Part shown: positions 62-23,333 of the stretch, piece by piece
Position numbering within the stretch: position 1 is the stretch's first letter
How the letters are laid out: every line of letters begins with the position of its first letter
DNA from: Candidatus Eisenbacteria bacterium
Lineage (GTDB): Bacteria > Eisenbacteria > RBG-16-71-46 > JASEGR01
Direction: 5' to 3'
DNA: 40,295 nt
Assembly (NCBI GenBank): GCA_030017955.1
Contig: JASEGR010000022.1
Span: forward strand, 1 to 40,295
Made by a program: the position numbers and the translations under genes
Notes under the pieces: generated by a model
Told to the model about the DNA's origin: nothing
Seen by the model: the letters and a program-made list of their open reading frames with translations, nothing else
Database searches by the model: none

Positions 62-1612
62 CTAGGAGCTTGCTTTTCCGCTCAGACTCTCCTTCGACAC
101 AAGTGATTCGACTTTCCCGACTGCGATCTTGAGACTTGCCCTGGAGCCTTCTTCCAGGCGCTTGAGCTCGTCAATCATTTTCTCCACATCCCCTCCTGTA
201 ACATCGGCAATGTTTATCAATACATTTAGTCTGCCGCCTTTGAATGCGGTGATGGCGAGCTCACACGCAACCCCGATGTCACTGGCCAGGTTTGGATTGC
301 CGGTGTAGGCTACTCTCTCGGCAATAGAGAGGACCTTTCCAGAGAGTCTTGCTGTCTCAAGCGGAACTCTCGCGGCATTCAGAGTCGCCTCACGAATTCT
401 CGCATCTGCCTCGGTTCCCGGCGTTGCTTTTGCCCTCTTTCTTTCATCAACGAGATCCTCGTAAGCTTTGGAATCTTCATCAACCAGGTCAATGAATCGG
501 GATTTGAGCTTTTCAAGCTCATCCCTCAAACCCCTTAACTCCTCCCAATTGGCCTCGTATTTCTTCTTTCCGATTGTGAGGTTAGCGGCCATGATGAGAA
601 GGGCGCATGAAAGAGATCCGCTCAGCGCCGACACCGCCCCGCCTCCGGGCGTGGGCGTGCCGGATGACACGTTGTCCACAAAGTCTCTTACCGCGCCAGG
701 CACGTCTTCCATAAGCTCGGCAACCCTCTCATCAACTATCTGCTTTCTCGAGAAGCTCTCCAGTGAGAGGTGATGCTGGACAACGTCAAGGAGCGGGTCC
801 AAATGAACAAGTCCGACGATTTCAGTGCCGACGACCGGCACACCGTATCTCTCAGCCTCCGAACGGACAATAGCCATGACTCTCTGAATCGGAGTCCCCC
901 ACGTATTCACGAGGTTCATCGAAACCTGGACTATGCCTCTTTCCTTCAGTTCAAAACCGAGCGCTTTCACGTATTTGAGGCCTCCGTCTCTGAACCTCAC
1001 TGCCTTTGCAATCTTCTGCGCGACGGAGATATCCGGCGTTCCGAGATTCACGTTGAATGCCAGAAGCGGCCTCCTCACTCCAACGGCGAGTGCTCCCGCG
1101 GTCGGATGAATGCTATCCGGGCCGAAGTCGGGCTTCCTCAAAGGATTCTTGCCCAACTCAAGACTCAAGCCTTCGAACTCTCCGCTTCTTACATCCGCCA
1201 GATTCTCCCTTTCAGGCCTCGTGGCAGCCAATTCATAAAGAAAGACCGGAACACCAAGCTCCTCCCCGATTCTTCCGCCAACTTCTTTTGCCAGCGAGAC
1301 ACACTCGTCAATGGAGACGCCCTTTATCGGGACAAAGGGAAGCACGTCGGTTGCGCCCATTCTCGGATGTTCGCCTTTGTGGGTTCTGAGATCTATGAGC
1401 TCTGTCGCCGTCTTGACTGCCCTGAATGCCGCTTCTCTCACTTCCTCGGGTTGACCGACAAATGTCATCACCGCGCGGTTGTGGTCGCCGTTCATCTCCT
1501 TATCAAGGAGTTTAACCCCGCGCACGGCCAGAATCTCGCGGGCGATCGAGTCTATGACTTCCTTTCTCTTTCCCTCACTGAAGTTCGGAATGCACTCAAC
1601 GAGCCTTCTCAT
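62..1612 (-). CDS. ftcD: Bifunctional glutamate formimidoyltransferase / formimidoyltetrahydrofolate cyclodeaminase
   Basis: This enzyme moves the formimino group of N-formimino-L-glutamate to tetrahydrofolate, then deaminates the product to 5,10-methenyl-THF. It ends histidine breakdown and feeds the one-carbon pool in the cytoplasm. Residues 1 to about 300 are the transferase, opening with VECIPNFSEG and containing GDHNRAVMTF and HPRMGATDV. Residues about 310-516 are the all-helical FchA cyclodeaminase, with the glycine-rich SGTPTPGGGAVSALSG and YTGNPNLASDIG. The two-domain fusion matches the layout of animal FTCD; many bacteria keep two genes. I chose the ATG at 1612 because AAGGAG precedes it at a normal distance and the conserved sequence starts there. 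A longer in-frame start at 1654 would add 14 unconserved residues. The start overlaps the end of hutI by 17 bases, which suggests translational coupling. Function is assigned by family recognition. Confidence 0.95.
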   Translation of the reverse strand: MRRLVECIPNFSEGKRKEVIDSIAREILAVRGVKLLDKEMNGDHNRAVMTFVGQPEEVREAAFRAVKTATELIDLRTHKGEHPRMGATDVLPFVPIKGVSIDECVSLAKEVGGRIGEELGVPVFLYELAATRPERENLADVRSGEFEGLSLELGKNPLRKPDFGPDSIHPTAGALAVGVRRPLLAFNVNLGTPDISVAQKIAKAVRFRDGGLKYVKALGFELKERGIVQVSMNLVNTWGTPIQRVMAIVRSEAERYGVPVVGTEIVGLVHLDPLLDVVQHHLSLESFSRKQIVDERVAELMEDVPGAVRDFVDNVSSGTPTPGGGAVSALSGSLSCALLIMAANLTIGKKKYEANWEELRGLRDELEKLKSRFIDLVDEDSKAYEDLVDERKRAKATPGTEADARIREATLNAARVPLETARLSGKVLSIAERVAYTGNPNLASDIGVACELAITAFKGGRLNVLINIADVTGGDVEKMIDELKRLEEGSRASLKIAVGKVESLVSKESLSGKASS

Positions 1613-2900
1613 GTGCCCCCTCTCCTTTTTCCAATCTTCCATACGAAGCAACAACCTTACCGTCTTTTATCGTATGAATTACATGATTGCCGCCAAAGTG
1701 ATAAGGGATGTACTCAAACGAAGGAACGTCAAGAATGATGCAGTCAAACTTCTTCCCTGGCTCGAGTGTTCCTACTTCCCGCCCCAGTCCTGCGGCATGG
1801 CCGGCGTTCCTGGTCGCCCCAACGATTGCCTCCTCCGGTGTGAGACCGACCCCGACACATGCAAGGGAGATAACCATCTGCATGGATTCGCACATCGAAC
1901 TGCCGGGATTCAAGTCAGTCGCAAGAGCCACCGGAAGACCGATATCAGCCATCTCTCTGCCGTTTGCATACTTCCCCTTGCCGAGACTGAAAGAGCATGC
2001 CGGCAGAAGAACCGGAATTACACCCGCGCTCAGAAGTTTCTCCATCCCAGCTCTTCCTGTGCACATAAGATGGTCTGCCGACACTGCACTTACTTCTGCA
2101 GCGAGAAGAGCACCGCCCGAGTCCGAAAACTCGTCCGCATGAAGCTTCGGCTTGAGATTGTGCCGTATCCCTTCCAGAAGCACAGTCCTTGACTCATCTA
2201 CGGAGAAAACGCCTTCTTCGCAGAAGACGTCGCAGAATTGCGCCAGTCCTCTCTTTGCCACTTCAGGGATGAGATCTTGCGTGATAAGCTCGACATACGA
2301 CCCCGTTCTTCCTTCAAAGTCCTGCGGCACATCGTGTGCTCCAAGGAAAGTCGCTACGACGGTGATGATTGAGAGCTCACCGACCTCCCGTATCAGCCTC
2401 AGAGCCCTTAGCTCGTCATCAAAGGAGAGTCCGTATCCACTCTTTATCTCAACCGATGTCGTTCCATGGATGAGCATCCTCTCAAGTCTCTTCAATGTTG
2501 ATGTCCTGATTTCATTATCGGAAGCATTTTTGAATTGCCTTACACTTTCCCTTATTCCGTATCCCTTCTCTCTGATTTCCATGTAGCTCGCGCCGCGCAA
2601 TCTCATCGAAAACTCTTTTTCCCGCGATCCGGCAAAAAGCGCATGCGTGTGGCAATCGACGAACCCAGGCATCACCAGCTTCCCTTTCGCGTCGATCCAC
2701 TTCCCTTTCTTCGAGAGCAGGATCTCGTTGTCGAGCAGGCTGCTTTCTCCGACTGCAACTATATTGCCGTTTTTCCCGGCAACGGTGCCGGTCCGTATTA
2801 ACCCAAGCTCACCGGAACCGTTCTTCGCTGATAGCGTGAGAAGCTCCTTTGCCTCCGAGATCACGGTGTCGGCTTCGATGCGTTTTCGGTTCCCGGCCAA
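1596..2900 (-). CDS. hutI: Imidazolonepropionase
   Basis: This enzyme hydrolyses 4-imidazolone-5-propionate to N-formimino-L-glutamate, the third step of histidine degradation. It is a metal-dependent amidohydrolase. The metal ligands expected for the family are visible: HTH in PGFVDCHTHALFAGSR, a histidine in KLHADEFSDSGGA, another in SADHLMCTG, and the aspartate in ALATDLNPGSS. The SVEIKSGYGL motif is also typical. I chose a TTG start at 2900, giving 434 residues, because a full AGGAGG sits five bases upstream and the conserved sequence begins soon after. The open frame runs on to 2981, but that extension has no homologous look. The gene lies between hutU (about 105 bases upstream) and ftcD (overlapping), so it works in the same pathway as both. 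Confidence 0.95.
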   Translation of the reverse strand: MAGNRKRIEADTVISEAKELLTLSAKNGSGELGLIRTGTVAGKNGNIVAVGESSLLDNEILLSKKGKWIDAKGKLVMPGFVDCHTHALFAGSREKEFSMRLRGASYMEIREKGYGIRESVRQFKNASDNEIRTSTLKRLERMLIHGTTSVEIKSGYGLSFDDELRALRLIREVGELSIITVVATFLGAHDVPQDFEGRTGSYVELITQDLIPEVAKRGLAQFCDVFCEEGVFSVDESRTVLLEGIRHNLKPKLHADEFSDSGGALLAAEVSAVSADHLMCTGRAGMEKLLSAGVIPVLLPACSFSLGKGKYANGREMADIGLPVALATDLNPGSSMCESMQMVISLACVGVGLTPEEAIVGATRNAGHAAGLGREVGTLEPGKKFDCIILDVPSFEYIPYHFGGNHVIHTIKDGKVVASYGRLEKGEGAHEKAR

Positions 2901-2967
2901 TCTTCCTCCTGATAAGTCAGCGATCGCTCGGTGCCCTTGACATATGGCAGCCTTGTCATCTCTCCGG

Positions 2968-2996
2968 CCGCCGCGCTCCAAAATTTCCTGCGGCGG
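2968..2996 (-). other. Hairpin between hutU and hutI
   Basis: A perfect 7-base inverted repeat, CCGCCGC at 2968-2974 and GCGGCGG at 2990-2996, encloses a 15-base loop in the 105-base spacer between hutU and hutI. No U-tract follows, so it is unlikely to be a strong terminator. An mRNA processing or stability role is possible but not shown. Confidence 0.4.
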
Positions 2997-3005
2997 TCGC
3001 GATGG

Positions 3006-4664
3006 TCAAAAGTGCGGAAGCTTGACATTTTTCTCTCTGGCGCAGTTCACGGCCTCCTCATAACCGGCGTCGGCGTGCCGTGCGACTCCGAGTCCCGGAT
3101 CGTTTGTGAGGACCCGGGCAAGCCGTGCATCGGTTGATTCTGCGCCGTCGGCAACGATGACCATGCCTGCATGAATCGAGTTTCCTATCCCGACTCCCCC
3201 TCCGTGATGAACAGAAACCCAGGACGCCCCGGAAACCGCGTTAAGGAGAGCATTCAGTATGGGCCAGTCGGCAATTGCATCGCTCCCATCCTTCATGCCC
3301 TCGGTCTCCCTGTTTGGGGAGGCAACTGAACCCGAGTCGAGATGATCTCTTCCTATGACGATCGGCGCTGTGATCTCGCCTTTTTTCATCATCCTGTTCA
3401 GTCTCAATCCAAACTGAGCTCTCTCCCCAAGCCCAAGCCAGCAGATTCTGGCGGGGAGTCCTTGAAATTTCACTCTCTCCCTTGCGAGCCTTATCCACCT
3501 CGAGAGCGCCTCATTCCTCGGAAACTCCTCAAGAAGCGCATCGTCTGTCTTCCACAGGTCCTCCGGATCTCCGGACAGGGCGGCCCACCGGAAAGGCCCC
3601 TTGCCGCTGCAGAAAAGCGGTCTTATGTACTGCGGGACGAATCCGGGAACGCTGAAGGCGTCCGTGACTCCTGCTTCCATCGCCTGCCCCCTGAGATTAT
3701 TCCCATAATCAAAGGCAACTGTGCCGCTTTTTTTGAAGTCGAGGATCGCTCGCATATGAACTGCCATTGACTCCATCGCACGCTTTACATACTCAGCGGG
3801 CTTCGCAACTCTGAGAGAAAGAGCCTCTTCCAGAGTCATGCCGCCGGGAACGTACCCAAACAGTGCATCATGTGCAGAGGTCTGGTCCGTAACAACATCC
3901 GGGCGGAATCCTCTCCTCAGCAATTCAGGATGGACTTCCGACGCGTTCCCCAGGAGCGCCACAGACAGTGGAATCTTCTTCGTCCTTGCCTCCTCAACAA
4001 GACTCAAGGCCTCATCCATCTTCTCCGTCATTCTCTCGCAGTATCCTGTCCTGAGCCTTCTCCTTATCTTCTCAGGGTCAACCTCAACGGCAAGACATAT
4101 TCCCTCGTTCATCGTTATCGCGAGCGGCTGAGCGCCCCCCATTCCACCGAGGCCCGCCGTAAGAACGATCTTTCCAGCAAGACTGCCGCCAAAGTGCTGC
4201 CTCGAAAGCTCTGCAAGGGTCTCATACGTCCCCTGAAGAATTCCCTGAGTCCCTATGTAGATCCAGCTTCCAGCCGTCATCTGGCCGTACATTGTCAGAC
4301 CACGGGCTTCAAGCTCCCAGAAGTTCTCCTTCGTTGCCCATGCCGGGACAATCATTGCGTTTGAGATGAGAACTCTTGGGGCCTCGCCGTGAGTCTTGAA
4401 TACGCCGACGGCTTTCCCGGATTGGACAACCAAGGTTTCGTCTCCCTCCAGCCTTCTCAACGAGTCAACGATTTTCTCAAAGCACTCCCAATTCCGTGCC
4501 GCCTTTCCGGTTCCGCCGTATACGATTAACTCAGACGGTTTCTCGGCAACATCAGGATCAAGGTTATTCATCAACATTCTCAACGCGGCCTCCTGATGCC
4601 ATCCCTTGCATGAAAGGATGGTGCCCCTTGGAGCCCGTACGGTCTTCCCGATCGCCTTATCCAT
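3006..4664 (-). CDS. hutU: Urocanate hydratase
   Basis: This NAD+-dependent enzyme converts urocanate to 4-imidazolone-5-propionate, the second step of histidine degradation. The N-terminus [20 protein letters not shown] and the downstream [12 protein letters not shown] are diagnostic. The nucleotide-binding loop is [14 protein letters not shown], and [18 protein letters not shown] is another signature. The active-site cysteine is in [11 protein letters not shown], at about residue 408, matching Cys410 of the Pseudomonas enzyme. The length of about 552 residues is normal. I prefer the ATG at 4664, which has AAGGAAAGG at a good distance. A GTG three codons upstream (4673) is possible but abuts that purine run. 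The gene starts 24 bases after the helicase gene ends, so it is probably transcribed with it. Histidine ammonia-lyase, which makes the substrate, is not in this window. Confidence 0.96.
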
Positions 4665-4688
4665 CTCCAGCACCCTTTCCTTCTGGTC

Positions 4689-10594: not shown

Positions 10595-12262
10595 TCAGAA
10601 AGTCTCCTGAACGGTGAAATGAATCTTTGCCTCTGAGATGGGCCTCCCGTTCTCGAATCCGAGATCAAGTCCGATGGCGCCCAGTCCCGAGTTTGCCCTT
10701 ATTCCGGCTCCGTAGCCGACCTCGCGAAGCACTCTGTCGTCCGAACCTCGTTCCAGAAGTCCCGAATCGACGAATACGAAGGTCCGGTTCCCATCTTTCC
10801 CGCTGAAAAACCGCAGTTCGAGAGACGCCACAAGCCCCTGCCTGACCCTGAACTGGTCTTCCCTGTAACCCCTAAGACTCTTCGCACCGCCAACGGAGGG
10901 AAGGTCATACGCCAGGAGCGAGCCGTTTGAAGATACCCCAAGATATCTAACTCGTGAACAGAGAGTGGGTTTCATTCCAAGTCTGACGTTGTACTCTAAG
11001 TTCGTATCCACTGCTCTCATCTGCCACGTGTCCGGGGATGGTCTTACCAGTCCCAGCTCCCTCTTCTCGCTTGAGGACAAATGGAAAGCCGCCAGAAATC
11101 CGGAGCGGGGCGAAAGAGGAGAATCCCTTCTATCCACCGCTGCTTCAGAAATCACGGAGATTGCCTCATTTTTCCTTCCGGTCAATTCGCCCAGAACCGT
11201 CTTCTCTTTCTCGACCGAAACGGCGCATTTCGTGCGGTATGAAAACGCGGTCTCAACACCAAGAGAGAAGGTGATCCTGGAAAATTCCTGGCCGATAGCG
11301 CGTTCGGTCAGACCCAGCTTTCCCGAGAAGGGAAAACCCAAAAGCCAGGGTTCGACATAGCTAAGTGAAAGCTCATTGCCGCTGTAACTGTTCCCTTTCC
11401 AGCCAGCCCTGAGCTTCCTCCCGGTTCCGGCTATGTTTCCAAGGAAGAGATTCAGGTAGCCGCTGGGCCGCTCACTCGCCCTCCTGAAGGCAATGCCGCC
11501 TGAAAAGGCCCCTGCCGGCTTCTCGGCAACCGGAACGAATATATCAGCATAAGGTCCGTTTTTCGAAAGGTTCACCACTGACGGACCGCTCTGAACGTAG
11601 AGTTCGTTCCTGGAAAACTTCTCTTCCGCCTGCCTGAGTTTTGAGTAGGAGAATATGGCGCCATGCTTCACTCCAAATTCCCTGCGCAGGAACGAAGTCC
11701 TGGGAGACGCCTTGGCCGAAAACGTCACCTCTCCGACGTGAAAAACGGATCCCTCTTTCACTCCAACCGTGAACTGAACCTTCTTTCCATTAACTATGAA
11801 ATCGGAAGGCCTGACTGTCGCATTCAGGAAGCCTCTCTCATTGAGGAACGATACTGTTTCTCTCAGGGCGCTCTCGACCTTGTCCGCGTCAAGAACATCA
11901 CCTTTCCTCAGCGGAAAGGAGTCCGCCAGCTCCTTTTCACGCACCTCCATCTCTCCAAGAAAGGATACTTTCTCGAACCTGACCGGCTCGCCCTCATCGA
12001 TCCTCAAGAGGAAGTTCTCGCCTTCCAGAAAGATCACTGCATTCGCATCCCAATATCCTTTCCGCTTGCAGAATTGAACGAGCCGTTCCCTTCCCGAATC
12101 GAGTTCCGCTTCTGAGTAAGGGCCGGTCGGATTCAGGGCAAGGACTCTGAGTATCTCATCTTTCGGAAACGCGCTCCCGCCCCTCAGGGCAATGTCCTGG
12201 GCATAGGAAACTCCCGGCATTCCGATGACAACGAATATCAATGCAAAAAATCCCAGTTTCAC
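10595..12262 (-). CDS. Omp85-superfamily outer-membrane protein (TamA/BamA-like)
   Basis: A probable outer-membrane barrel that inserts or exports other barrel proteins. Residues 1-21 are a signal peptide ending in SYAQD. About residues 24-240 hold three POTRA-like repeats, recognisable from the FCKRKGYWDANA and FLNERGFLNATVRP segments. The rest is a 16-strand-type barrel, with the conserved Omp85 loop-6 motif as SLRGYRED and a C-terminal phenylalanine (TVQETF) as expected of a barrel signal. Three POTRAs and 555 residues are closer to TamA than to BamA, which normally has five POTRAs. The GTG start overlaps the stop of the upstream surface-barrel gene (TAGTG), so the two are translationally coupled. 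This coupling suggests that this protein handles that barrel or the other outer-membrane proteins of the same run. Family assignment is strong; the TamA-versus-BamA role is inference. Confidence 0.85.
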   Translation of the reverse strand: MKLGFFALIFVVIGMPGVSYAQDIALRGGSAFPKDEILRVLALNPTGPYSEAELDSGRERLVQFCKRKGYWDANAVIFLEGENFLLRIDEGEPVRFEKVSFLGEMEVREKELADSFPLRKGDVLDADKVESALRETVSFLNERGFLNATVRPSDFIVNGKKVQFTVGVKEGSVFHVGEVTFSAKASPRTSFLRREFGVKHGAIFSYSKLRQAEEKFSRNELYVQSGPSVVNLSKNGPYADIFVPVAEKPAGAFSGGIAFRRASERPSGYLNLFLGNIAGTGRKLRAGWKGNSYSGNELSLSYVEPWLLGFPFSGKLGLTERAIGQEFSRITFSLGVETAFSYRTKCAVSVEKEKTVLGELTGRKNEAISVISEAAVDRRDSPLSPRSGFLAAFHLSSSEKRELGLVRPSPDTWQMRAVDTNLEYNVRLGMKPTLCSRVRYLGVSSNGSLLAYDLPSVGGAKSLRGYREDQFRVRQGLVASLELRFFSGKDGNRTFVFVDSGLLERGSDDRVLREVGYGAGIRANSGLGAIGLDLGFENGRPISEAKIHFTVQETF

Positions 12263-15200
12263 TAGAAGAACGCCCTCACTTCCATACGGCCCGTGTGCTG
12301 AACAGGCTCTCCCTTTCGCATCTTGCCGTCAAGAGAGAGGGAGACCATTGTCGAAGAACCCATTCTAGACTCGATGAGCAGAAGATAAGAGAACCTGCCT
12401 CCCGTGTCGGACAAGCTCGTCCCATAATTCCCATATCCCGCCCTGCCTTCTATCCTCACCTTTCCCGGATCCGAATACACGAGGCTCGGTGTGACCTGAA
12501 TCCTTCGCCTGCTCGAATCCCATCCTGCGTCCTGGACCGACCCGACCTGAGACTGAATCCTGGCGACCGTCCTGGACGACAGAGCCGATGAGAATTCCGA
12601 TCCGACAGTCCTCTCCGTGCGTGAGACGAGGTTTTTCCTCGATGCGCCCGCGAGATACATCCGGTACGAGGAGCTCGAGTACCTGATGTCGCCCCTCCTG
12701 GCTTTGGAGCGCAGAACTCCGACTGAGAAGCCGTACTTATCCTCCCTCTCAACCTCATTTTCTCCCGAGATACAGCTCAACGCCTCCCTGCCTGAGAATG
12801 AAACTGCGAATGAGCCAGTCTTTCCCGGCGCAAATTCGATCTCCTCGTTGACTCTCGTCTCTCCAGAAAGAACCCCATCATAGCCGCCAATCTGGAAAAC
12901 CGACATGCTTCCCTGTCTGATTGTTTCGATGCTGTTTCGCCAGAAAATATTGGACAGCCACGAGGCCGTGTTCTTGTCGCGACACCTGAATGGAGAAAAA
13001 TCAGTATTGAGAGCCATCCTCACAGATGTGACGACTGTGCTGTCATCACTCCGGCTCTGGCTCAGTTCGTAGTCGCCGCCCGGAACCGGGTTTCCATTTA
13101 CGTCGAAGTTCCCCTTTCCCACTCCGACAAACACCAAATCCCGCCTCAGGGTGAGGAATCCGTTCCTGGTACCTTCGAGACGGAGTTTTCCTTCAAACAT
13201 GCCGTCCTTATCATACCCGACATTCAACTGTCCTAGCGAGTGCCGGCTCTTCGCAGTTTCTCTGTAAACCGTGTGGCTCATATTGCCGGATGCCTTAAGC
13301 TCCCTTGTCGGAGCCGAATCAAACGAGAACAGCCCCGTGACTCTGGAGGAAATGCCGCTCCAGGTTTGGCTTTCCTTCGTGAATTCATCTTTCTTCGTGC
13401 CCCTCAGCTCAAAGGATGCCACATCTCCAAACCTAACGTTTGCCCCGGAGCTGTACTCCTCCCTCAATCGCGGCGACCGGTTTCCCCCCGAAGAAGCTTC
13501 CCGTTCGTAAAAGGCGAAAGGTCTCACCTTGCCCAAGCCGACCGTCGTGTTCATCCCGTGAGTCGTTCTCTCCGAGGGAGCGCGTCCCGGAAAACTCGAA
13601 ATGACACCTTCATATCTTCCGCCAAAAGTGGAATTCCCGGTGGAAGTGAAGCTCAAGAGATTTCTTCTCGAAGAAAAATCGTTTCCGCCCGAAAGGCCTC
13701 CCCGCTCAAAACTCAGCTCGCGGGTCTTCACCGGCCTGTAATTGAGTTTGAGAAGAGAAGTCACTCCCCCGGAAGACAATTCTTCCTTCGTACCGTTCCA
13801 CGAAATCTCGTTGAATCCCTCGTTCACCCTGCCGAAAGGTAAGAACGAATCCTCAACCTTCTTAAGCGAAAGGCCGCATTCGAGCTCGCCCATATTCATT
13901 GTCCCAACACCAATTTCCTTCTTCAAATGTGATCCCGTCCTGAAGGCAAACCCGTCATAGGAATCATATCTGTTCACACCCCTTGTTCCCTTCCTCGAAA
14001 CCGCCCCTTCGAAGTTGAAAACCGCTGAGTTCGTTACCGGAAGCTCCGCTCCAAGCTGAAGAAGTGAGCGGGAGAGAGCCGACTGGCCCGCGGCTGGAGG
14101 GTCGGAAACCGAATCGGCCTGAGCCCCGGGGAGTGTTCCCTTCTCAAGACTACTTGCCGGCGTCAGAGGGTGCTCCGTCTCCTGCACGAAAGCAGCAGAA
14201 AAATGTTTCCCGCCCTTCTCCCCGTGCTCAAGAACAGTTCCTACGAAGCCTTTCTTTCCGCCATCTCTTTGAAGCTGGAAATCCACCAGGATCCTTGAAT
14301 CTTTTCCAATGATTCTGCGAGGCTGAAACGTAATGGCACCCCGATAATAATCTACCGAGTAATCTGCCCCTTCTCCCCGTGTCATCCTCTCACCATCCAG
14401 GAATACCTTTTCAGAGCCGGGCCGCAGGCTGCCTTCACTGCTTGATATCAGATAATACGGCCCCTGCTTCCCATCCACTCCAAAGATCTCTTTGGAGAGA
14501 AACTCGCTCCTTGATGAGCCAAGGGAGAGGTTAAGACTGGATGAATTCACCTGGGTTGCAATTCGTACGCCCTGGAGTTGGCGCGAAAAGTCTCCGAAGC
14601 CGGATTCGTCGCGGGAAGCGTCGTAATCCCCGAGCAGGACCGAGGAAGACCTGGAGCGCACCTCCACCAGTATCTTGTCAAGCTCGCCGAGCTCCTCGGT
14701 CAATCCATTTCCACCCGCAGGCGAATCTCTGTCGGAAAGGACTGCCGCGATTTCGACATCGTTCACCCTTCCGCCGACTCGAAGGTCGAGAGCTTGCTTG
14801 AGAGAGAAATCTTTGGACGAACCGGCCTCGAGCGATATCACTTTCGAACCGGAAATTGAGAATGAAGACAGTTCGTCGGATTTGTTTTCCCTGAGGCTCT
14901 CCTTTTTTCTGTGGGGCTGATCGGCACTATCCTGGGCCGACGTCAGCTGTGTTTCACTTCTGTACTCCCTCCCCAGATAGAATGGCAGATGTGCATAGGT
15001 GACTAGAAGACTGTCTTCTCCGGGAACGGGCCGCGCGAGATGCAGCATGCCGGCTGAATAGTCGACCGAGTAGTCTCTTCCCCTGACCAGAAGAGAATCG
15101 TGAACATATACCTTTTCGCTCCCAAGGAAGATGAAGTCGTGCGGAAGCCTGTAGGACAACGGGGATTCGGCCTTGCCCAGAATCACTTTGGCTTCCTGTG

Positions 15201-15273
15201 CCCGAACAGGCAAAGGCGAGACGAGCAGTGCCAGGACGCCGGCCAGAAGTACGCTACTTCTGAGATGGTTCAT
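12262..15273 (-). CDS. Large outer-membrane beta-barrel protein with SprA-like domains
   Basis: Function unknown. The 1003-residue product starts with a signal peptide (MNHLRSSVLLAGVLALL, cut near VRAQ). Two copies of a short domain follow a pattern also found in SprA: GRDYSVDYSAGMLHLARPV in the first 100 residues and GADYSVDYYRGAITFQPRR near residue 310. Between them is a segment with DLRVGGRVNDVEIAAVLSD, ELGELDKILVEV and LLGDYDASRDESGFG. The last 600 residues are alternating hydrophobic/polar strands rich in Ser, Gly, Arg and Glu, ending in VRAFF. That is consistent with a large barrel closed by a terminal Phe. I chose the ATG at 15273, which overlaps the lipoprotein gene by 20 bases; the open frame continues to 15354 without a signal-like start. 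It is not TamB-like. It may be a surface export channel or a scaffold; this is unproven. Confidence 0.7.
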   Translation of the reverse strand: MNHLRSSVLLAGVLALLVSPLPVRAQEAKVILGKAESPLSYRLPHDFIFLGSEKVYVHDSLLVRGRDYSVDYSAGMLHLARPVPGEDSLLVTYAHLPFYLGREYRSETQLTSAQDSADQPHRKKESLRENKSDELSSFSISGSKVISLEAGSSKDFSLKQALDLRVGGRVNDVEIAAVLSDRDSPAGGNGLTEELGELDKILVEVRSRSSSVLLGDYDASRDESGFGDFSRQLQGVRIATQVNSSSLNLSLGSSRSEFLSKEIFGVDGKQGPYYLISSSEGSLRPGSEKVFLDGERMTRGEGADYSVDYYRGAITFQPRRIIGKDSRILVDFQLQRDGGKKGFVGTVLEHGEKGGKHFSAAFVQETEHPLTPASSLEKGTLPGAQADSVSDPPAAGQSALSRSLLQLGAELPVTNSAVFNFEGAVSRKGTRGVNRYDSYDGFAFRTGSHLKKEIGVGTMNMGELECGLSLKKVEDSFLPFGRVNEGFNEISWNGTKEELSSGGVTSLLKLNYRPVKTRELSFERGGLSGGNDFSSRRNLLSFTSTGNSTFGGRYEGVISSFPGRAPSERTTHGMNTTVGLGKVRPFAFYEREASSGGNRSPRLREEYSSGANVRFGDVASFELRGTKKDEFTKESQTWSGISSRVTGLFSFDSAPTRELKASGNMSHTVYRETAKSRHSLGQLNVGYDKDGMFEGKLRLEGTRNGFLTLRRDLVFVGVGKGNFDVNGNPVPGGDYELSQSRSDDSTVVTSVRMALNTDFSPFRCRDKNTASWLSNIFWRNSIETIRQGSMSVFQIGGYDGVLSGETRVNEEIEFAPGKTGSFAVSFSGREALSCISGENEVEREDKYGFSVGVLRSKARRGDIRYSSSSYRMYLAGASRKNLVSRTERTVGSEFSSALSSRTVARIQSQVGSVQDAGWDSSRRRIQVTPSLVYSDPGKVRIEGRAGYGNYGTSLSDTGGRFSYLLLIESRMGSSTMVSLSLDGKMRKGEPVQHTGRMEVRAFF

Positions 15274-16207
15274 AATCAACCCTGAATGCCTGAATCCTGT
15301 CATTCCCTTTGTCGGCAACGTACAACATACCGTCGCTGGAAACGGCAACGTCAATAGGACATCTGAAGGACCCAGGCCCTGAGCCGCGGGTGCCTATGGA
15401 AAGCACCGGCCTACCCTCTCTGGAATACACTAACACCTTGTCGCTGCCGCAGTCTGCAACAAACAGGTTCCCGTAGCCGTCAACGGCAATTCCTGAAATA
15501 TTCGACGAGCCCTCTCCCGTTTTCCAGCTCTGAATAGTCCCGCCCATCGCATCAAAAACGATTATCAGGCCGCTGACCGGATCGGAGGCGAACACTGCCC
15601 CGTCTTTTCCGACTGCAAGACCAGACGGATGAAACTCACTTGACAGGTCGCTGGGATAGAAGGACTTCACAACCTCTCCGGTCGTGGTAAGAAGCAGCAC
15701 GCGTCCCCCTGCCCTGTCTGTAAGGTATATTCTGCCTGAGGAATCGAGCGCAATCCTCTCGAACGAATACGGCCGTCCTTCGGAGGAAAGTGCCGGACTT
15801 ATGTCTTTTGAGAATCTTCCCCTCATGTCATATAGCTCAATTATGCCTTCTCTTGATCCCAGAACGTAGATTCCAAGCTCTCCGGAAGAAAACACGTCCT
15901 TTGGACTGAAGAAAACGCTGCCGCTCGCAAGCTCACCGATGTAGTTTCCCTTCCGGTCGAACTTCTCCACCCTCCGTCCTCTTCCATCCACAACCAGAAG
16001 ATTTCCAGCAGGGTCAACGTCAACTGCCTGGGGAGACTCGAAAATCCTGACTTCCCCCGACATACTGCCTAGATCGAAAAGAAAGCTCGTCCCTTGAGGG
16101 ACTTTTCCGCTTTCGCGGGCAGTTGACAGAAAGGGGGAACGGCCGGTTGATGGGAGACATCCACTCAAAACAATGGCAAGGAGAGAGACAAAACAACTAC
16201 ACTTCAA
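15254..16207 (-). CDS. NHL-repeat beta-propeller lipoprotein
   Basis: A secreted lipoprotein with a six-bladed propeller made of NHL repeats. The N-terminus is a short lipoprotein signal with the lipobox VLSGC, lipidated Cys at residue 17. Repeats show the usual pattern of a Pro-x-x-Val/Ile-x-Val-Asp start and an Asp-Arg/Lys-Val turn, for example FESPQAVDVDPAGNLLVVD, SGIAVDGYGNLFVADCGSD and CPIDVAVSSDGMLYVADKGN. NHL propellers bind proteins or carbohydrates. No catalytic residues are evident. The start is TTG at 16207 inside TTGA, overlapping the stop of the previous gene, with GAGGAG about six bases upstream. Its place in an outer-membrane operon suggests an accessory periplasmic or surface lipoprotein of that complex. 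Confidence 0.85.
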   Translation of the reverse strand: MKCSCFVSLLAIVLSGCLPSTGRSPFLSTARESGKVPQGTSFLFDLGSMSGEVRIFESPQAVDVDPAGNLLVVDGRGRRVEKFDRKGNYIGELASGSVFFSPKDVFSSGELGIYVLGSREGIIELYDMRGRFSKDISPALSSEGRPYSFERIALDSSGRIYLTDRAGGRVLLLTTTGEVVKSFYPSDLSSEFHPSGLAVGKDGAVFASDPVSGLIIVFDAMGGTIQSWKTGEGSSNISGIAVDGYGNLFVADCGSDKVLVYSREGRPVLSIGTRGSGPGSFRCPIDVAVSSDGMLYVADKGNDRIQAFRVDYEPSQK

Positions 16208-17109
16208 AAACGCTCCTCAAGGCACACGCGGAAGGAAAGTCCCTGAGCCCCGGAAAACGTGACAGAAGCCCGGGGACCTTCCCTCCCGGGATCGCGTGTT
16301 TTTTTTGAAAGAATGAGGGCATCGTCCACGGCGCTGAAGATTCTGTTCAGAACCATGGCGCCGAGCACGAGCTTTGCATTGTGATATGCGCGAACGCTGC
16401 TTGTTCTCAGCGTTGAATATTCGGCCATCTTCTCGTCTGACACCCACTCCCAGCCATCGCTTCTAAAGTAGCCGTTTGTTCTCAAGTACTCTTCTTGTGC
16501 CTCTCTGTCATTGGGGTACCTGAACCTTGCGTCTCTTCTTATGTCTTCATTGTAACTTCCGGGACCCGGATCGCTTCTGTAGTACTTGCCTAGTGCCCTG
16601 TAGTAGTCGTCAGACTTCCCGTGGACATTCGTGCCTGCGAACATAGATGCAAAATTAGTGTAGCTATCCTTTCTCATGCCCCCTTGGACCTGATATACGA
16701 CATATGAAAGCCACACTGCTCCTTCAGCGGCCAGAAAAACAAAAGCCCTGTCCTTCTCTCCGAGAATGTACTCCCCACCGCCCGGGATAAGGAGAGAAAC
16801 GAGAATCGAAATCTTCTCTCTGGACGCTTTTCCAGAATGATTCCGGCTCATCCCCTCTTTTGGCCCCAGGAAAGCAATCGGCCTCTCATCCTGAGGCGAC
16901 ACATTCACAAGCGAGACCGCATAGATGCCTGCTCCGTCCCCACCCTTAACAATCCTCTCCCCATTGGGGAGAGGATAGAGGTGAGGGGGGCTCTCCCCTC
17001 CGGGGAGAGGACAAAGGTGAGAGGTCCCGCTCGCAGCAGAATACAAAAACCCCGCGAGCGTGAAGACAGAAAAGATGAAGAAGAGACTAGAAAGTTTTCT
17101 TGAGCGCAA
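16204..17109 (-). CDS. DUF5683-like exported protein, second of a tandem pair
   Basis: Function unknown. The protein (about 301 residues) has an N-terminal signal-like segment (KLSSLFFIFSVFTLAGFLYS). A low-complexity stretch rich in Pro and Gly comes from an inserted palindromic repeat. The conserved core begins LLIPGGGEYILGEKDRAFVF and continues as a membrane-type helix, AEGAVWLSYVVYQ. A charged helical middle region and a C-terminal helix, MVLNRIFSAVDDALILSK, follow. Its last residues are LEERF. The Pro-Gly-x-Gly-(E/Q)-(I/Y) turn followed by hydrophobic helices is typical of DUF5683-like proteins. The neighbouring 17087-17908 gene is a paralogue with the same core. I chose the TTG at 17109 behind GGAGAAGGAAGGA; a GTG at 17139 lacks an SD site. 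It overlaps both neighbouring genes. No function should be inferred beyond a likely envelope location. Confidence 0.7.
   Translation of the reverse strand: MRSRKLSSLFFIFSVFTLAGFLYSAASGTSHLCPLPGGESPPHLYPLPNGERIVKGGDGAGIYAVSLVNVSPQDERPIAFLGPKEGMSRNHSGKASREKISILVSLLIPGGGEYILGEKDRAFVFLAAEGAVWLSYVVYQVQGGMRKDSYTNFASMFAGTNVHGKSDDYYRALGKYYRSDPGPGSYNEDIRRDARFRYPNDREAQEEYLRTNGYFRSDGWEWVSDEKMAEYSTLRTSSVRAYHNAKLVLGAMVLNRIFSAVDDALILSKKTRDPGREGPRASVTFSGAQGLSFRVCLEERF
16952..17021. repeat. Tandem GC-rich palindromic repeat inside a coding sequence
   Basis: Two hairpin units lie 36 bases apart. The first is an 11-base perfect inverted repeat (16952-16962 / 16966-16976, CCTCTCCCC core). The second is an 8-base one (16991-16998 / 17002-17009). 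Each is followed by AGGTGAG; the two 20-base blocks at 16966-16985 and 17002-17021 differ at two positions. CCTCTCCCC-type palindromes followed by CTCACC are common dispersed repeats in bacterial genomes. The reading frame stays open across the insert and encodes a Pro/Gly-rich segment just after the signal peptide. Confidence 0.75.
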
Positions 17110-17908
17110 TCCTTCCTTCTCCGGTTGCAGGATGAACACTCACATTTAAGGACATCCCCCTCTTTGCAAGGATCAATGCATCAAGCGCACTTGCGACTCT
17201 GTTAAGAAGAAGGCCCATCGTCGCATACCTCGCCGTCCTCAAGAGGGAATTGCTCTTGTCTCTTCTCGAAAGATACGTGGTTCTGCTCAGACTGGTATCC
17301 CAGCCGGCAATGAACCTGTTATCCTTCCCAATCTCCTCATAGAACTCCCCTTTGTCCTTCTCATAGAGTTCCCCCAGGAATTCGCTGGCAAGAGTGTCAT
17401 CGGGAGTACTCACTGTGTTCCGGTATCTGGCCCAGTCCCAATGCTCGTCGGCAAAGCGCTTATATTCTCTCTCCTCCGCCTTTCCGCTCGCCCTGAACGA
17501 GAAGAATGTAACCCAGCCAACGGCCTCCACCCCCCAGAACACAAGACTTCTGCCTGTGACAGAGCGCTGAGCATAGATTTCGCCTGTTCCGGGCATCGCC
17601 AGGGAAAGGAAGAGTGCACCTCCAGGATTCGGCGGAGTCCTTGCCTCCTTACTCTTCTGCTCTTCCCCCTGCTCCTCTTTTTTCTCCTCCCTCTTGATAG
17701 CCCTTTGTGCCGCAAACTCATGCTTCAGGGAAAGCACAGACTCACGGTATCTTACCGTCCGCATCGAGCCCTGAGACTCAATTGACGCGTGAGACGCTGC
17801 CGGCACAAGGTAGCTGTCGTGTGCAATGAGCCTCCCGGCAGAGAAGGAGCTTCCCTGCCAGGAAACCAGGAGGAGCAGAGATAACAAAAAGAGGAAATGA
17901 GAACGCAC
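17087..17908 (-). CDS. DUF5683-like exported protein, first of a tandem pair
   Basis: Function unknown. The 273-residue product opens with a signal peptide (MRSHFLFLLSLLLLVSWQG). A charged, Lys/Glu-rich linker (about residues 65-95) follows. The core LAMPGTGEIYAQRSVTGRSL aligns by eye with LLIPGGGEYILGEKDRAFVF of the next gene. A hydrophobic segment (WGVEAVGWVTFFSF), a long charged region and the helix MGLLLNRVASALDALILAKR come after it. The last helix matches MVLNRIFSAVDDALILSK in the paralogue. The protein ends in the strand-like GEGRIALKKTF. The start is GTG at 17908, six bases after the porin stop, with weak SD support. The gene overlaps the next one by 23 bases. Tandem paralogy is clear from the shared motifs. 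An outer-membrane role is suggested only by neighbours and the terminal Phe. Confidence 0.7.
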   Translation of the reverse strand: MRSHFLFLLSLLLLVSWQGSSFSAGRLIAHDSYLVPAASHASIESQGSMRTVRYRESVLSLKHEFAAQRAIKREEKKEEQGEEQKSKEARTPPNPGGALFLSLAMPGTGEIYAQRSVTGRSLVFWGVEAVGWVTFFSFRASGKAEEREYKRFADEHWDWARYRNTVSTPDDTLASEFLGELYEKDKGEFYEEIGKDNRFIAGWDTSLSRTTYLSRRDKSNSLLRTARYATMGLLLNRVASALDALILAKRGMSLNVSVHPATGEGRIALKKTF

Positions 17909-17914
17909 TATTCT

Positions 17915-18898
17915 CTAGAACTTCGCCGTGAGAGAGTATCTGGACGCCCTCTCGAGGAATTTGGACTGGGTAACATTCGCATAGTCGAACCTAAGCCTCC
18001 CGTACATGATCCCAATCCCGAATGTTGGTCCAACGACCGTGCTTCCAGTGAGTCCCTCATCTATATAGCCCGCCCTGAGCGCAAGAAAGTCGTTCCAATT
18101 GAACTCGGCCCCGTAGTTGAAAATCGGAGGGTCGTCGACATAGACAAAAGGTTTGTTGAAATCAAAGGTGAACAACAGCTTGGACGCCGGACCAAATCCC
18201 AATACATAGGCCGCGCCAACCTTAAGGTTTCTCCCAAGAGGATCCGACTGATCCTCATCAACGTACGCTATGTTCGGACCAAGGTTCTGAAATGACGCAC
18301 CAAGACACAGTTTTCCCGAACGAAGTCTTGTCAGAGCTCCGAGGTCAACAGCCACCGTAGTCCCGGCGCCCCTCTTGCCCATTCCGGCCTGCAAAGCCCA
18401 CGCCGGAGCGAGGTCAACACGAACGAACTTAAGATTGACCCCGATCCCGAGAACGCTGCTCAACTTTGAGGCAAAGGCGATCGAAGGTGCAAATTCAAAC
18501 GGTGAAAACGTCCCTATCACATCTTCGGGACCGCCCGGACCGGTTGCGACGTTCTTGCCGTACGTGAGATATGCAAGTGAGGTCCCCACCGCCCCCCATT
18601 CACCCAGAGATGTCGTGGCACTCAGGAACTCGTAATAGACATCGGAGACGAGGTCCGGAACAAGCGCTATGTGAGTCAGTGACCCGTTTGTCCCTTTCAA
18701 AAAAGCCATTCCTGCCGGGTTCCACCAGACGGCACTGGCGTCGTCAGCAATTGCGCCGAAACTTCTTCCCATCCCGTCAGCTCTGGCGTTAGGCGCAATT
18801 TGAAGAGAAATGGCGCCTGCGCTGGTCTGCCCCGGGCAGCTCTGGGAAGAGAAAATGAAGAATACGAGAAATAGCAGCGATATCACCATCTTTGCCAT
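17915..18898 (-). CDS. PorV/PorQ-family outer-membrane protein
   Basis: A probable FadL-like outer-membrane barrel of the PorV/PorQ family. In Bacteroidota, PorV carries cargo within the type IX system and forms the attachment complex with PorU. The signal peptide covers residues 1 to about 24. The diagnostic N-terminal block is SLQIAPNARADGMGRSFGAI followed by ADDASAVWWNPAGMAFL, where an early Arg/Gly block precedes the WWNPAG motif. The rest is short beta-strands, ending SRYSLTAKF with the expected terminal Phe. At 327 residues it is slightly shorter than Porphyromonas PorV (about 390) and close to PorQ. It lies 172 bases downstream of the gingipain-like gene, and porU and porV are also neighbours in Porphyromonas gingivalis. 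The family call is firm; PorV rather than PorQ rests mainly on the neighbour. Confidence 0.8.
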   Translation of the reverse strand: MAKMVISLLFLVFFIFSSQSCPGQTSAGAISLQIAPNARADGMGRSFGAIADDASAVWWNPAGMAFLKGTNGSLTHIALVPDLVSDVYYEFLSATTSLGEWGAVGTSLAYLTYGKNVATGPGGPEDVIGTFSPFEFAPSIAFASKLSSVLGIGVNLKFVRVDLAPAWALQAGMGKRGAGTTVAVDLGALTRLRSGKLCLGASFQNLGPNIAYVDEDQSDPLGRNLKVGAAYVLGFGPASKLLFTFDFNKPFVYVDDPPIFNYGAEFNWNDFLALRAGYIDEGLTGSTVVGPTFGIGIMYGRLRFDYANVTQSKFLERASRYSLTAKF

Positions 18899-19070: not shown

Positions 19071-22000
19071 TTACCTCATCATTACGGCCCTGCCAACCGA
19101 GGTGGCAGTCTTTCCCGAAGCCGTCCCCTTGGCAGAAATCTTGTATATGTAGAGACCGTTTGCAACCCTGATTCCGGTCTCGTCCAGTCCGTCCCAGCGC
19201 ACATTGTTCTGACCGATCTCTCCAGCCGTCTTCAGAATTCGAAGCTGCCTCCCGGACACCGTGAATATCTTGATAGTCACCTCTGAGGGCTGAGTAAGCT
19301 CAAAGCTGATATCGGTCCACTCGCTGAATGGGTTAGGGAAGTTGAACACAGTTTTGATGTCCTCAACGTCCACCACCGCGAACCTTATGGGGTTATTGAG
19401 GTCACCGGCCTCCCTCCTGTGGTTCAGATTGTCCGATGCTCTCACTGAAATGGTGTGCGGACCGAGTGAGATCGATGGCAGTGAATAGACAAAGCTTCCC
19501 ACAGTGGAGCTCCCTGCGTCATACTCAAACGACTCGGTAAGGTCAACAGCTGCACCGTTGTCAATCTTCATGTGGATAGTGTAGTAAGGGGTCAACCCGG
19601 TGATGTTCATCCCGCTTTCATCGGAAATCCTGACAGTCAGCTTTGATCCCGGACGGACGCGCCCCAGGTTCCGATCCGTTTCATTTGCCCCCGGAATTAC
19701 ACACCACGGTTTCCCTTCAAATCTAAGAGCAATCGTTGGAGCGATGGAATCAGTGGTGGTCACTTTTTCAATTGATATCTGGGTCGGAAATTTTATCCCA
19801 ACGCCATCCCCGGCACTGCCATAGACGTATGCCTTGACCCTGCCGCTGGCAGGTTTGACGACTACAAGAGTATCCAGCGTCCTCGGCAGGGTTCTCGGCG
19901 TGAGCTCGACCGGCACTACGAAGCTGCCGCTGAAACTCCCGGCCGACACAGGGAACTCTCCCCTGAAGATTGGCGCGCCCTCAAGATAGTAGTCAACACC
20001 TTGGGTGTACGTCGCGTTGGGAAGGATTCCCCTCTTTCTTTCCAAGTCCCGTACTTCAACCTTCACAAATCCGTTGAAAGAGCTGTCCTTGGTTCCGGAC
20101 AGAAGGACCTCGCCCGATACCGTTGCCCTTGAGCCCGCCTTGAGTGTGTCACCGTAATCCGATGCGACCTGGACCGTTACCTGTTTCGAAGGGGCGGAAA
20201 GCACCAAACCCGGATCTCCAAGAAGGACATACTTCTGGCTGTTTATCGAGCTCCTCAGGTGATTCTTCGCCAGCATGGTGGCCACACCCAATGCAACGGG
20301 ATTCATGAATGACTCCAAAGGAAAGAGGTTATCAAAGAAGGACGTGTTGAGAGCTGAGTTCTCTCCTGGGAAGGCAAGGTCAGTGGCTGCAAATGAAGCT
20401 ATAGAACCTCCACCTGCGAACTTCAGAATGGCTTCACCAATTCCCTCAGTCGTAGGCTCATCAAACTTCCCAACAGCGCACGATGCCGATATGAACAGGT
20501 GCAGCCTCCTTCCATTGGTCAAAGTCCCGACATCTATGTCTCTGAAGACGTCCTCGTCGGCAAGCAGGTCAGCCCCGCCGTGCCCGACAAAATTGAAGAT
20601 CAACGCCCCGCTGCCGATCAGCGATTTCAGCATCTCCTTCGCCTTAGGCTTTGAATCCAACTTGCAAACAGGTTGGTCTGGATATATGAGAGGCGATTGC
20701 TGAAATTCGGTCAGATAGACCTTTTTCCGGTCAAATTCAGCAGGAAGGTAAATGCTCAGACGTTCGGCCTGGAGCACGTGAGTCCAGGCAAGATTGTCGG
20801 CCTCCTGTCTCTTACACGTGTCGTCGGCCACAAGGATTACCTTGCTTCGCCAATCCCCGGATTCGGGCGATTCCTCATAGGTGATTATCTTGTTCAGCAG
20901 AATTCCAAGCTCCGCCAGATCTTTTGCCGGGACCCTCCCTACAGCAAGATCGAGGAGATTGTCAGTCGGAACTGTGTCCATCAGCGCGAACCAGTCGTCT
21001 GTCACATACTGAGTGGAAGTATATTGGTCGTATCCGTTCTGATATGTCGGGATCTGATTCTCAATGTGAGTCCCTTCGAAGTCCTTATAGTCCCTTGTAG
21101 CGTCACCAACGAAGACTATGAAGGAAGGCTGTCTCAGCCATTCTGCATAAGCGAACCGAAGGAAGTTGCGGAGCGCAGTCGGATCAACCATTCCCCACGC
21201 GAACTCGTCGTAAATGTCCGACATCGTGATCACTTCAACCTTCGGCGAGCCGATGCCCGGGAGTCTTCTGCTTCTCAGCGAACGGAGAGGCTCGACTCCG
21301 CTTTTCAGTTTGTCTCCCACGACGACAATGTAGTCTGCTTCGGAAGCTGCCCTCAGCCATCTTGTTGCGCCTGCCCCGTTCAGCGGCGGATCGTCAACTT
21401 CGGCCTTCACAGGGGACCTCATGCCATCCAAAGTACAGATCCAATATCGCCTTGGGCTTCCGGCCATGTCATCGTCGATCTCGATCGTATAGGACCCGGT
21501 CCCGGCCTGATTTTTTCTGATGCCGGTCAGCTTCACCGGGTTCCTCCAATCCGTAACATCCAGCGCGTAAACTTGCGGCACCCCGCTCGCCGAGGTCACA
21601 CCGGAGACGGAATACGTGACATTACCGGTAGAATCGGTTGAACCGAATCCCAGCCTGTTGGATTCGGTCTTCAACTGCCTCTCGTAGTCGAATTCGAAGA
21701 ATGCGAGATAAGTCTGATCGTCTCTTGTTATCCCTGAGGGCAGCGAAGGGTCAACGATAAGCGGAATATCCATGAACAGGGTGTCGAGCTCGCCAAGTCT
21801 GAAGCTGGAAGGGTCGATCGTTCTGACAATGTCAATCCTGCCTGACGCTGAAGGATCCTTGTATCCGCCGTTCCATCCCACAGAGGCAAGTGTATCCGCA
21901 AGACTATTCCACATGAGATTCAGGTAGTGGGTGTTGTAAAAAGATGAACGAACGTTCGACTCCCCCCAGAATCTCGCCAGGAATTTCACCGGTGTTGACG

Positions 22001-23333
22001 CGACAATGCCGGGAAGCCTGAGGATCTTGTACGTGGGCGGATCAGTGTCGTGGAGCACTTCCCACCACCACTTCTCCCACTTCACTGTCCTGTCGACACG
22101 AGTTTTGTCCTGGATAAGAGTTGCATCGTGGAACCGGTTCTGCTCAAGGTGAATTCTCTCCGGAAATGACTCAAATGCGCTTCTCGCCCCGGCGGCCGCG
22201 GATCTCTCAGTCATTGCCCTCGGCAGCGGATTCTGCGTGAAGCTTCCGCCCCAGGTGAGCCACAGAACCGAATAGCGGGTATAAATGTTCTCATAATAAG
22301 ATCTGGACCTTTGGGCAGTCGAGAAACCAGACAACCAGCCCGAAGGGCTGAGCGCAAAGAACGCTACATATTCGTCGTCCTCAAAAAATGCGTCGGAATC
22401 GTAGCTTCCGAGAATTGCACATTCATCCATCCATGAAGGAAGAGCGGAGTCCAGAGCTGCCTCGTCGAGCATCGTGAGCGATCCGGAGAACACCCTTAAG
22501 GTGCTTGGGTCAATGGCCGCGACGGCCGCCTGATCGACTCCCGCGGATCGCAGAAGCGAAGGCGTCACAGCGTAGAGGCCGCTCTCCTCGACGTACAGTT
22601 TGACCCAATTCTGGGACGAGTTGAAATAATCGGTCGTGGAGAATGCCTTTTTCGCCGGGCCTTTCCTTTGGACCCTCCAGGCCCTTGCCGATTCGTAGTT
22701 CAAAAGAGCCGAGCTGTAGATGGACTCAAGCGGCTCCTTTTCCGCAGAGTAAGAAGGAGCTCTTCCACCTTTCATTCTCACCGAAATAATCATCCTCTTC
22801 GTTAGCACCGTCGTCTTTCGACCGGCATCAAATTCCACCGGCGTAATGATGATCGAGGCCACTCTTTGATTTCTCATAGAAGAGACTGAGGCCAGCTCAA
22901 CCGGAGCCGCCGGGAACCGGCCGCGCGCATCAGAGTTCACACCTTCAAAAACAATCTCCCCGACGTCTGCTGTTTCGAGCCTGGAGAAAGTAACATCGAT
23001 GGAGCTTCCGTCCCGCACGCCGAGAAGCACCTCTTTCCTGGGAAGCGCCGGTTCTCCATTTCTCATGAGATTGTTGCAGTCCTCGATAGTCACGGTCTCG
23101 CCGCCGCCCGGGAGCGGAGATTGCTGAACTTGTCCCATATTGAATTCAAACTCAATGATGTCTGGGCTGGATCTCAGAAGGGTAACGGTTTCGTGAGCCG
23201 AACTCACACCGGCGAGGTCTCCCGTGCCCAGGAGAATGAGGGTAAGGACAAGGGCCGGCCAAGGAAGCAGCGGGAAGCGATGATGCATGACGTCCGTGAA
23301 TCTCACCTCAGCTGAGTTTTTCTGCTTCATCAA
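19071..23333 (-). CDS. PorU-like C25 (gingipain-family) cysteine protease with T9SS-type C-terminal domain
   Basis: PorU is the type IX secretion sortase that removes C-terminal signals and attaches cargo to the cell surface. Here a signal-like segment lies near residues 20-45 (LLPWPALVLTLILLG). It is followed by a PorU-type N-terminal region (NWVKLYVEESGLYAVTPSLL). The C25 catalytic domain has DYIVVVGD at its start, the catalytic histidine in NFVGHGGADL (near residue 917) and the cysteine in LFISASCAVGKFDEPTTEG (near 951). Ig-like regions follow. The last 85 residues are a FlgD-like sorting domain (FNFPNPFSEWTDISFEL, then GLYIYKISAKG). At 1420 residues it is somewhat longer than Porphyromonas PorU. 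The start is uncertain: TTG at 23333, ATG at 23330 and ATG at 23288 are all in frame, and none has a clear SD site. It could instead be a secreted gingipain-like cargo; the PorV-like neighbour favours PorU. Confidence 0.8.
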   Translation of the reverse strand: MMKQKNSAEVRFTDVMHHRFPLLPWPALVLTLILLGTGDLAGVSSAHETVTLLRSSPDIIEFEFNMGQVQQSPLPGGGETVTIEDCNNLMRNGEPALPRKEVLLGVRDGSSIDVTFSRLETADVGEIVFEGVNSDARGRFPAAPVELASVSSMRNQRVASIIITPVEFDAGRKTTVLTKRMIISVRMKGGRAPSYSAEKEPLESIYSSALLNYESARAWRVQRKGPAKKAFSTTDYFNSSQNWVKLYVEESGLYAVTPSLLRSAGVDQAAVAAIDPSTLRVFSGSLTMLDEAALDSALPSWMDECAILGSYDSDAFFEDDEYVAFFALSPSGWLSGFSTAQRSRSYYENIYTRYSVLWLTWGGSFTQNPLPRAMTERSAAAGARSAFESFPERIHLEQNRFHDATLIQDKTRVDRTVKWEKWWWEVLHDTDPPTYKILRLPGIVASTPVKFLARFWGESNVRSSFYNTHYLNLMWNSLADTLASVGWNGGYKDPSASGRIDIVRTIDPSSFRLGELDTLFMDIPLIVDPSLPSGITRDDQTYLAFFEFDYERQLKTESNRLGFGSTDSTGNVTYSVSGVTSASGVPQVYALDVTDWRNPVKLTGIRKNQAGTGSYTIEIDDDMAGSPRRYWICTLDGMRSPVKAEVDDPPLNGAGATRWLRAASEADYIVVVGDKLKSGVEPLRSLRSRRLPGIGSPKVEVITMSDIYDEFAWGMVDPTALRNFLRFAYAEWLRQPSFIVFVGDATRDYKDFEGTHIENQIPTYQNGYDQYTSTQYVTDDWFALMDTVPTDNLLDLAVGRVPAKDLAELGILLNKIITYEESPESGDWRSKVILVADDTCKRQEADNLAWTHVLQAERLSIYLPAEFDRKKVYLTEFQQSPLIYPDQPVCKLDSKPKAKEMLKSLIGSGALIFNFVGHGGADLLADEDVFRDIDVGTLTNGRRLHLFISASCAVGKFDEPTTEGIGEAILKFAGGGSIASFAATDLAFPGENSALNTSFFDNLFPLESFMNPVALGVATMLAKNHLRSSINSQKYVLLGDPGLVLSAPSKQVTVQVASDYGDTLKAGSRATVSGEVLLSGTKDSSFNGFVKVEVRDLERKRGILPNATYTQGVDYYLEGAPIFRGEFPVSAGSFSGSFVVPVELTPRTLPRTLDTLVVVKPASGRVKAYVYGSAGDGVGIKFPTQISIEKVTTTDSIAPTIALRFEGKPWCVIPGANETDRNLGRVRPGSKLTVRISDESGMNITGLTPYYTIHMKIDNGAAVDLTESFEYDAGSSTVGSFVYSLPSISLGPHTISVRASDNLNHRREAGDLNNPIRFAVVDVEDIKTVFNFPNPFSEWTDISFELTQPSEVTIKIFTVSGRQLRILKTAGEIGQNNVRWDGLDETGIRVANGLYIYKISAKGTASGKTATSVGRAVMMR

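Follow-up and report, generated by a model that had tools for sequence, protein, structure and literature searches.

What is encoded by a gene for 1003 residues that carries two DYSVDY domains, is coupled to an adjoining Omp85 gene, and has no Pfam family at E ≤ 1? This question is raised by a 40,295-nucleotide stretch of Candidatus Eisenbacteria DNA (contig JASEGR010000022.1), which at its full length is called here the window. A sequence-only reading had described a 1003-residue barrel-type gene with two DYSVDY domains and a C-terminal Phe, and this description stands, with the addition of the strand, which was unstated earlier: at 12262-15273 it is the minus frame that stays open, with many stops in the plus frame. 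The features on which our argument draws are as follows.

12262-15273, minus strand: putative SprA-superfamily giant outer-membrane barrel gene, 1003 aa (open reading frame and termini, AlphaFold2, hhalign, Foldseek).
15196-15273, minus strand: predicted signal peptide, aa 1-26 (sequence reading; model helix at aa 3-18; cleavage near VRAQ).
14974-15198, minus strand: small beta domain 1 with GRDYSVDYSAGMLHL, aa 26-100 (hhalign to the SprA domain, E 6.7e-11; motif position).
14482-14865, minus strand: eight-strand block, aa 137-264 (hhalign to residues about 146-290 of the genome's own SprA, E 1.3e-6; controls E ≥ 0.049).
14269-14481, minus strand: small beta domain 2 with GADYSVDYYRGAITF, aa 265-335 (hhalign, E 2.6e-14; TIGR04189 stretch at aa 282-372).
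12265-14253, minus strand: predicted C-terminal barrel part, aa 341-1003, with about 31 long strands (AlphaFold2 strands; alternation z 4.6; terminal Phe).
10595-12262, minus strand: Omp85-family gene with three POTRA domains (PF07244 three times, 1.2e-24; PF01103 Omp85 domain, 3.8e-16).
15254-16207, minus strand: NHL beta-propeller lipoprotein (PF01436, 8.9e-19; lipobox LSGC by sequence reading).
16204-17139, minus strand: DUF5683-like protein a, a weak assignment (position and resemblance to b; no Pfam match above cut-off).
17087-17908, minus strand: DUF5683-like protein b, a weak assignment (PF18935 at 14 bits, below the cut-off of 26.7; conserved position).
17915-18898, minus strand: PorV/PorQ-family T9SS outer-membrane shuttle (NF033709, 187 bits, cut-off 90).
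19071-23333, minus strand: PorU type IX sortase, a C25 peptidase with a sorting-type tail (NF033707, 547.5 bits, cut-off 420; PF01364, 2e-79).

The barrel gene starts with the ATG at 15273, its predicted signal peptide reads MNHLRSSVLLAGVLALLVSPLPVRAQ, and the protein ends in RMEVRAFF with the terminal Phe; the product is predicted to be a secreted, Sec-exported outer-membrane protein. Both ends of the gene overlap a neighbor, given that the NHL gene, ending at 15254, overlaps the start by 20 bases on the upstream side, and that at the other junction, TTC TTC TAGTGAAACTG, the TAG stop of the barrel gene and the GTG start of the three-POTRA Omp85 gene share one base, as had already been read from the letters. 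The two DYSVDY peptides lie at aa 65-79 (15037-15081 of the window) and aa 302-316 (14326-14370), and the DYx[VIL]DY motif, present twice in the protein, appeared at least once in just 9 of 20,000 shuffles of the protein.

The NCBIfam search of the protein gave TIGR04189 (SprA/Sov) in two stretches with 32.1 bits and E 1.8e-8, not reaching the cut-off of 200 bits, and it also gave weak phage tail matches, as it did for other family members; SprA_N (PF14349) was absent in the Pfam search at E ≤ 1. Because phage tail families share the DYSVDY motif, the motif by itself is not diagnostic and is insufficient to establish kinship with SprA. The label “SprA-like” that had been put on the two domains survives on other grounds, since both domains align to SprA by the profile-profile comparison that had been proposed for this purpose. 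Aligned by hhalign with 26 SprA sequences, small domain 1 gave E 6.7e-11, small domain 2 gave E 2.6e-14, and the block formed by the first eight predicted strands gave E 1.3e-6, corresponding to residues about 146-290 of the genome's own SprA. Taken as one segment, the eight-strand block plus domain 2 aligned collinearly, in SprA's order, to columns 170-446 of the SprA profile, and the same queries against reversed SprA, PorV, Omp85, PorU, NHL, DUF5683, and WecB gave E ≥ 0.014 throughout. A possible further shared motif, E.A.S..D.NT, collinear with the PNPNT of SprA, reached E 0.0035 and was left out of the evidence. The C-terminal two thirds (aa 341-1003) found no significant sequence match to SprA by hhalign (E 0.02). 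From these alignments, the N-terminal third of the protein is very probably homologous to SprA, and in the broad sense of homologous small domains together with N-terminal strands in SprA's order, the protein belongs to the SprA superfamily.

It is not the SprA of this genome. A separate SprA is encoded by a 1999-codon open frame on contig C43, with 523 bits to TIGR04189 against the cut-off of 200, and the PF14349 match of the genome is this same frame; the SprA profile, built from proteins of the class to which the window's genome belongs and one from outside it, matched solved SprA at 2.9e-139. The 1003-residue protein as the SprA equivalog is therefore ruled out by its 32 of 200 bits and by the separate SprA of about 2000 residues. 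The partner Omp85 was likewise rejected as BamA, with 126 of the 297 bits demanded by the BamA equivalog TIGR03303 and with a separate BamA on contig C13 (492.7 bits); a TamA-like gene lies on contig C14.

Relatives of the protein were gathered from 33 loci of named genomes (Cloacimonadota, WOR-3, and Stahlbacteria) and from loci of relatives of the window's genome. In two family alignments, one with 59 and the other with 13 members, the conserved core comprises QSLxL..G.L, LSD, LGD, GKQGPY, GSE.V.LDG, and DY.IDY..G.ITF. Missing from the window's member is a VGxGxGDY-rich stretch of about 85 residues, which in most relatives separates strands 10 and 11. Apparent fusions of the barrel and Omp85 genes at four loci (L075, L078, L089, and L090) were rejected as overlapping long frames. 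The family profile found no match among PDB sequences (best E 0.32).

The AlphaFold2 model of the window's protein has a mean pLDDT of 84, a pTM of 0.74, and 39 long strands by our count, and that of a second family member has 87.9, 0.75, and again 39 strands. Along the predicted strands, the in/out hydropathy alternation lies 4.6 s.d. above shuffled strands, which together with the model bears out the long tail of alternating strands recognized from the sequence. The models predict a very wide barrel, with eight strands lying between the two small beta domains and about 31 others following the second. In Foldseek searches of the PDB, SprA entries took the top three places for both models, the best being 6h3i at 2.5e-8 for the window's protein and 8gl6 at 9.2e-9 for the second member. 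Despite this top rank, the TM-scores of both models against SprA are low, about 0.24, and therefore the match supports relatedness of the strand pattern more than a common global geometry. A viral structure library returned only beta matches of low TM-score.

In the class of the window's genome, the gene order is PorU, PorV, in some cases an M6-like gene, two DUF5683-like genes, the NHL lipoprotein, the barrel gene, and Omp85. The PorV-family gene, over its family cut-off, stays below that of the stricter PorV equivalog NF033710 (133.6 vs. 250). The M6-like gene, resembling a T9SS-dependent inactive protease (NF052323, below cut-off), lies between PorV and the DUF5683-like genes in relatives (L068:3762-7349 and equivalents) and is absent in the window. 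The two DUF5683-like genes (16204-17908) are adjacent, both encode a terminal Phe, and are conserved in the operon while lacking a confident family. Elsewhere in the window, 32238-35330 encodes a subtilase that resembles a type 9 substrate, having FG-GAP repeats as well as a FlgD_ig tail, and 62-4673 carries, by sequence reading, histidine-degradation genes (formiminotransferase/cyclodeaminase-like, imidazolonepropionase-like, and urocanase-like).

Synteny was counted by domain position. The Omp85 gene lies directly downstream of the barrel gene in all 31 class loci and in 25 of 37 loci of other lineages, and in none of the 25 of the Cloacimonadota and WOR-3 set; for the NHL gene directly upstream, the corresponding counts are 26/26, 26/40, and 0/27. 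The coupling to Omp85 that had been proposed is thus strict in the class and common elsewhere but absent from Cloacimonadota and WOR-3, and because of these 0/25 loci, Omp85 is a frequent, non-obligate partner of the barrel gene. In Cloacimonadota and WOR-3, the barrel gene stands apart from Omp85, from NHL and, nearly always, from PorU and PorV, its other neighbors being a TPR lipoprotein, an S24-type peptidase, or a propeller-like protein. In the Cloacimonadota loci (L002-L034), a TPR lipoprotein gene and an S24-type peptidase gene precede the family member, with no Omp85; SprE, one partner of SprA, is also a TPR lipoprotein. Outside the class, the linkage of the barrel gene with PorU and PorV recurs in several families.

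We surveyed 385 genomes, 47 of the window's class and 338 outside it, with the family profile (E < 1e-30 outside the class). The family was found in 46 of the 47 class genomes and in 68 of the 338 others, the latter spread over 50 families, and SprA_N was detected in 90 of these 338. Among the 68 positive genomes outside the class, 67 were also SprA-positive (Fisher 1.5e-49, uncorrected for phylogeny), and shared phylogeny could be a partial cause of this co-occurrence. In the window's genome, PorU, the PorV-family shuttle, and SprA each exceed their curated cut-off. Four of the 385 genomes have GldM (PF12081) above the cut-off, and the GldM/PorM motor, sought as PF12081, was found in none of the 47 class genomes. 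PorU (19071-23333) and the PorV-family gene (17915-18898) belong to a type 9-like system for which the known motor, sought as GldM, was detected in no genome of the class. Two Bacteroidota-like genomes, G249 and G379, carry GldM, a strong SprA_N, and a family member, and in G379 the neighbors of the latter include, by sequence reading, proteins with type 9 sorting tails.

The reading we prefer, to which we give a probability of about one half, is that a compact barrel of the SprA (Sov) superfamily, without SprA's extra thousand residues, would serve in the outer membrane as an accessory outlet of a type 9-like system, with the coupled Omp85 as its insertase. The barrel would act as an SprA-type protein outlet beside full-length SprA, perhaps with a PorV-type carrier, and the translationally coupled three-POTRA Omp85 may be a dedicated insertase for so unusually wide a barrel. 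Its gene stands in a type 9-like gene set with the PorU sortase, the PorV shuttle, and the NHL lipoprotein, in lineages having full-length SprA and no detected GldM. Our data show the homology of the N-terminal third, the conserved operon, and the co-occurrence with SprA, and predict the barrel; its function as a channel, what it carries, and the part played by Omp85 are inferred. Against this reading speak the lack of significant similarity to SprA in the C-terminal two thirds, the low TM-scores, the separate position of the gene in Cloacimonadota and WOR-3, and the possible share of phylogeny in the co-occurrence. Two hypotheses had been offered from the sequence, a shortened SprA-type channel and a dedicated substrate-assembler pair; the former is the better one and the latter is compatible with it, the SprA link and the Omp85 coupling both being real. 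A bolder version would hold that these lineages, lacking detectable GldM, possess two SprA-type outlets, full-length SprA and the compact barrel, of which the latter, served by an Omp85 insertase and an NHL lipoprotein of its own, would be a distinct motor-independent type 9-like translocon; we consider this rather doubtful.

The rival that survives best, an unlikely one that we nevertheless take seriously, is a large outer-membrane barrel with a role outside type 9 secretion, whether in lipid, polysaccharide, or polymer transport or as a surface scaffold, which would owe to SprA only its ancestry and whose proximity to the operon would be lineage-specific. The different neighbors of the Cloacimonadota and WOR-3 members agree with it, as does the fact that just the N-terminal third can be aligned to SprA, but the presence of SprA in 67 of the 68 positive genomes outside the class and the recurrence of the PorU-PorV linkage in several outside families argue against it. 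Quite unlikely in our view is a barrel without channel function that works at the PorU-PorV stage as a surface attachment or scaffold protein, taking the place that PorQ/PorZ have in Bacteroidota, with the NHL propeller as its partner. Such a scaffold would fit an operon that unites PorU, PorV, and the NHL propeller lipoprotein, the last being the immediate upstream neighbor at all 26 class loci, and a genome in which the channel, full-length SprA, is encoded elsewhere; the similarity, however, is to SprA and not to PorQ or PorZ, and in other lineages the members lie far from PorU and PorV. A degenerate or split SprA remnant, compatible with the half SprA length, the N-terminal similarity, and the Foldseek match, is almost certainly refuted because full-length members of about 1000-1200 aa are conserved alongside intact SprA in 46 of 47 class genomes and in 50 families outside.

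The literature consulted treats SprA as the sole giant type 9 translocon, with 36 strands and, according to PMC12611786, specific to FCB. A second barrel of the SprA superfamily that is widespread, occurs almost exclusively in genomes with SprA, and often shares an operon with PorU, PorV, and an Omp85 of its own would be an unrecognized component of type 9-like secretion. It also raises the questions of how such secretion proceeds in the absence of the GldM motor and how so wide a barrel is inserted. Given that the GldM-bearing, Bacteroidota-like genome G379 has a family member, a genetic test in a flavobacterium may be possible. No short relative of SprA is described in the literature searched, which largely lacked subscription journals.

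Compared with known systems, SusC and the TonB-dependent receptors share with our models weaker Foldseek barrel matches, but SprA ranks first and the protein has no plug or TonB domain (Pfam). BamA resembles the partner gene in having POTRA domains and an Omp85 barrel, whereas the partner has three POTRAs and 126 bits against the cut-off of 297. The TamA-TamB and TamL-TamB pairs also place a large exported protein beside an Omp85 gene; in contrast, our protein has no TamB/AsmA domain (no TamB/DUF490 in Pfam at E ≤ 1, in agreement with the sequence-only reading, which had held it not to be TamB-like), is a predicted barrel instead of a periplasmic beta-taco, and occurs in a genome with another TamA-like Omp85. 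SprA itself is described as a translocon of 36 strands that has a cap, a lateral opening at which PorV docks, and the substrate CTD in the pore (PMC10994853), and as a channel specific to FCB of which more than 150 kDa is extracellular (PMC12611786). SprA/Sov (TIGR04189; PDB 6h3i, 8gl6, and 8gl8) is about 2000-2400 aa long and has large cap regions outside the membrane, whereas the family member here has 1003 aa, no SprA_N (PF14349), C-terminal strands that cannot be aligned, and a true SprA separate in its genome. In common with SprA/Sov, it has the DYxVDY small domains, the homologous eight-strand block and then, in the same order, a small domain, a very large barrel, predicted here, and the co-occurrence with PorV and PorU.
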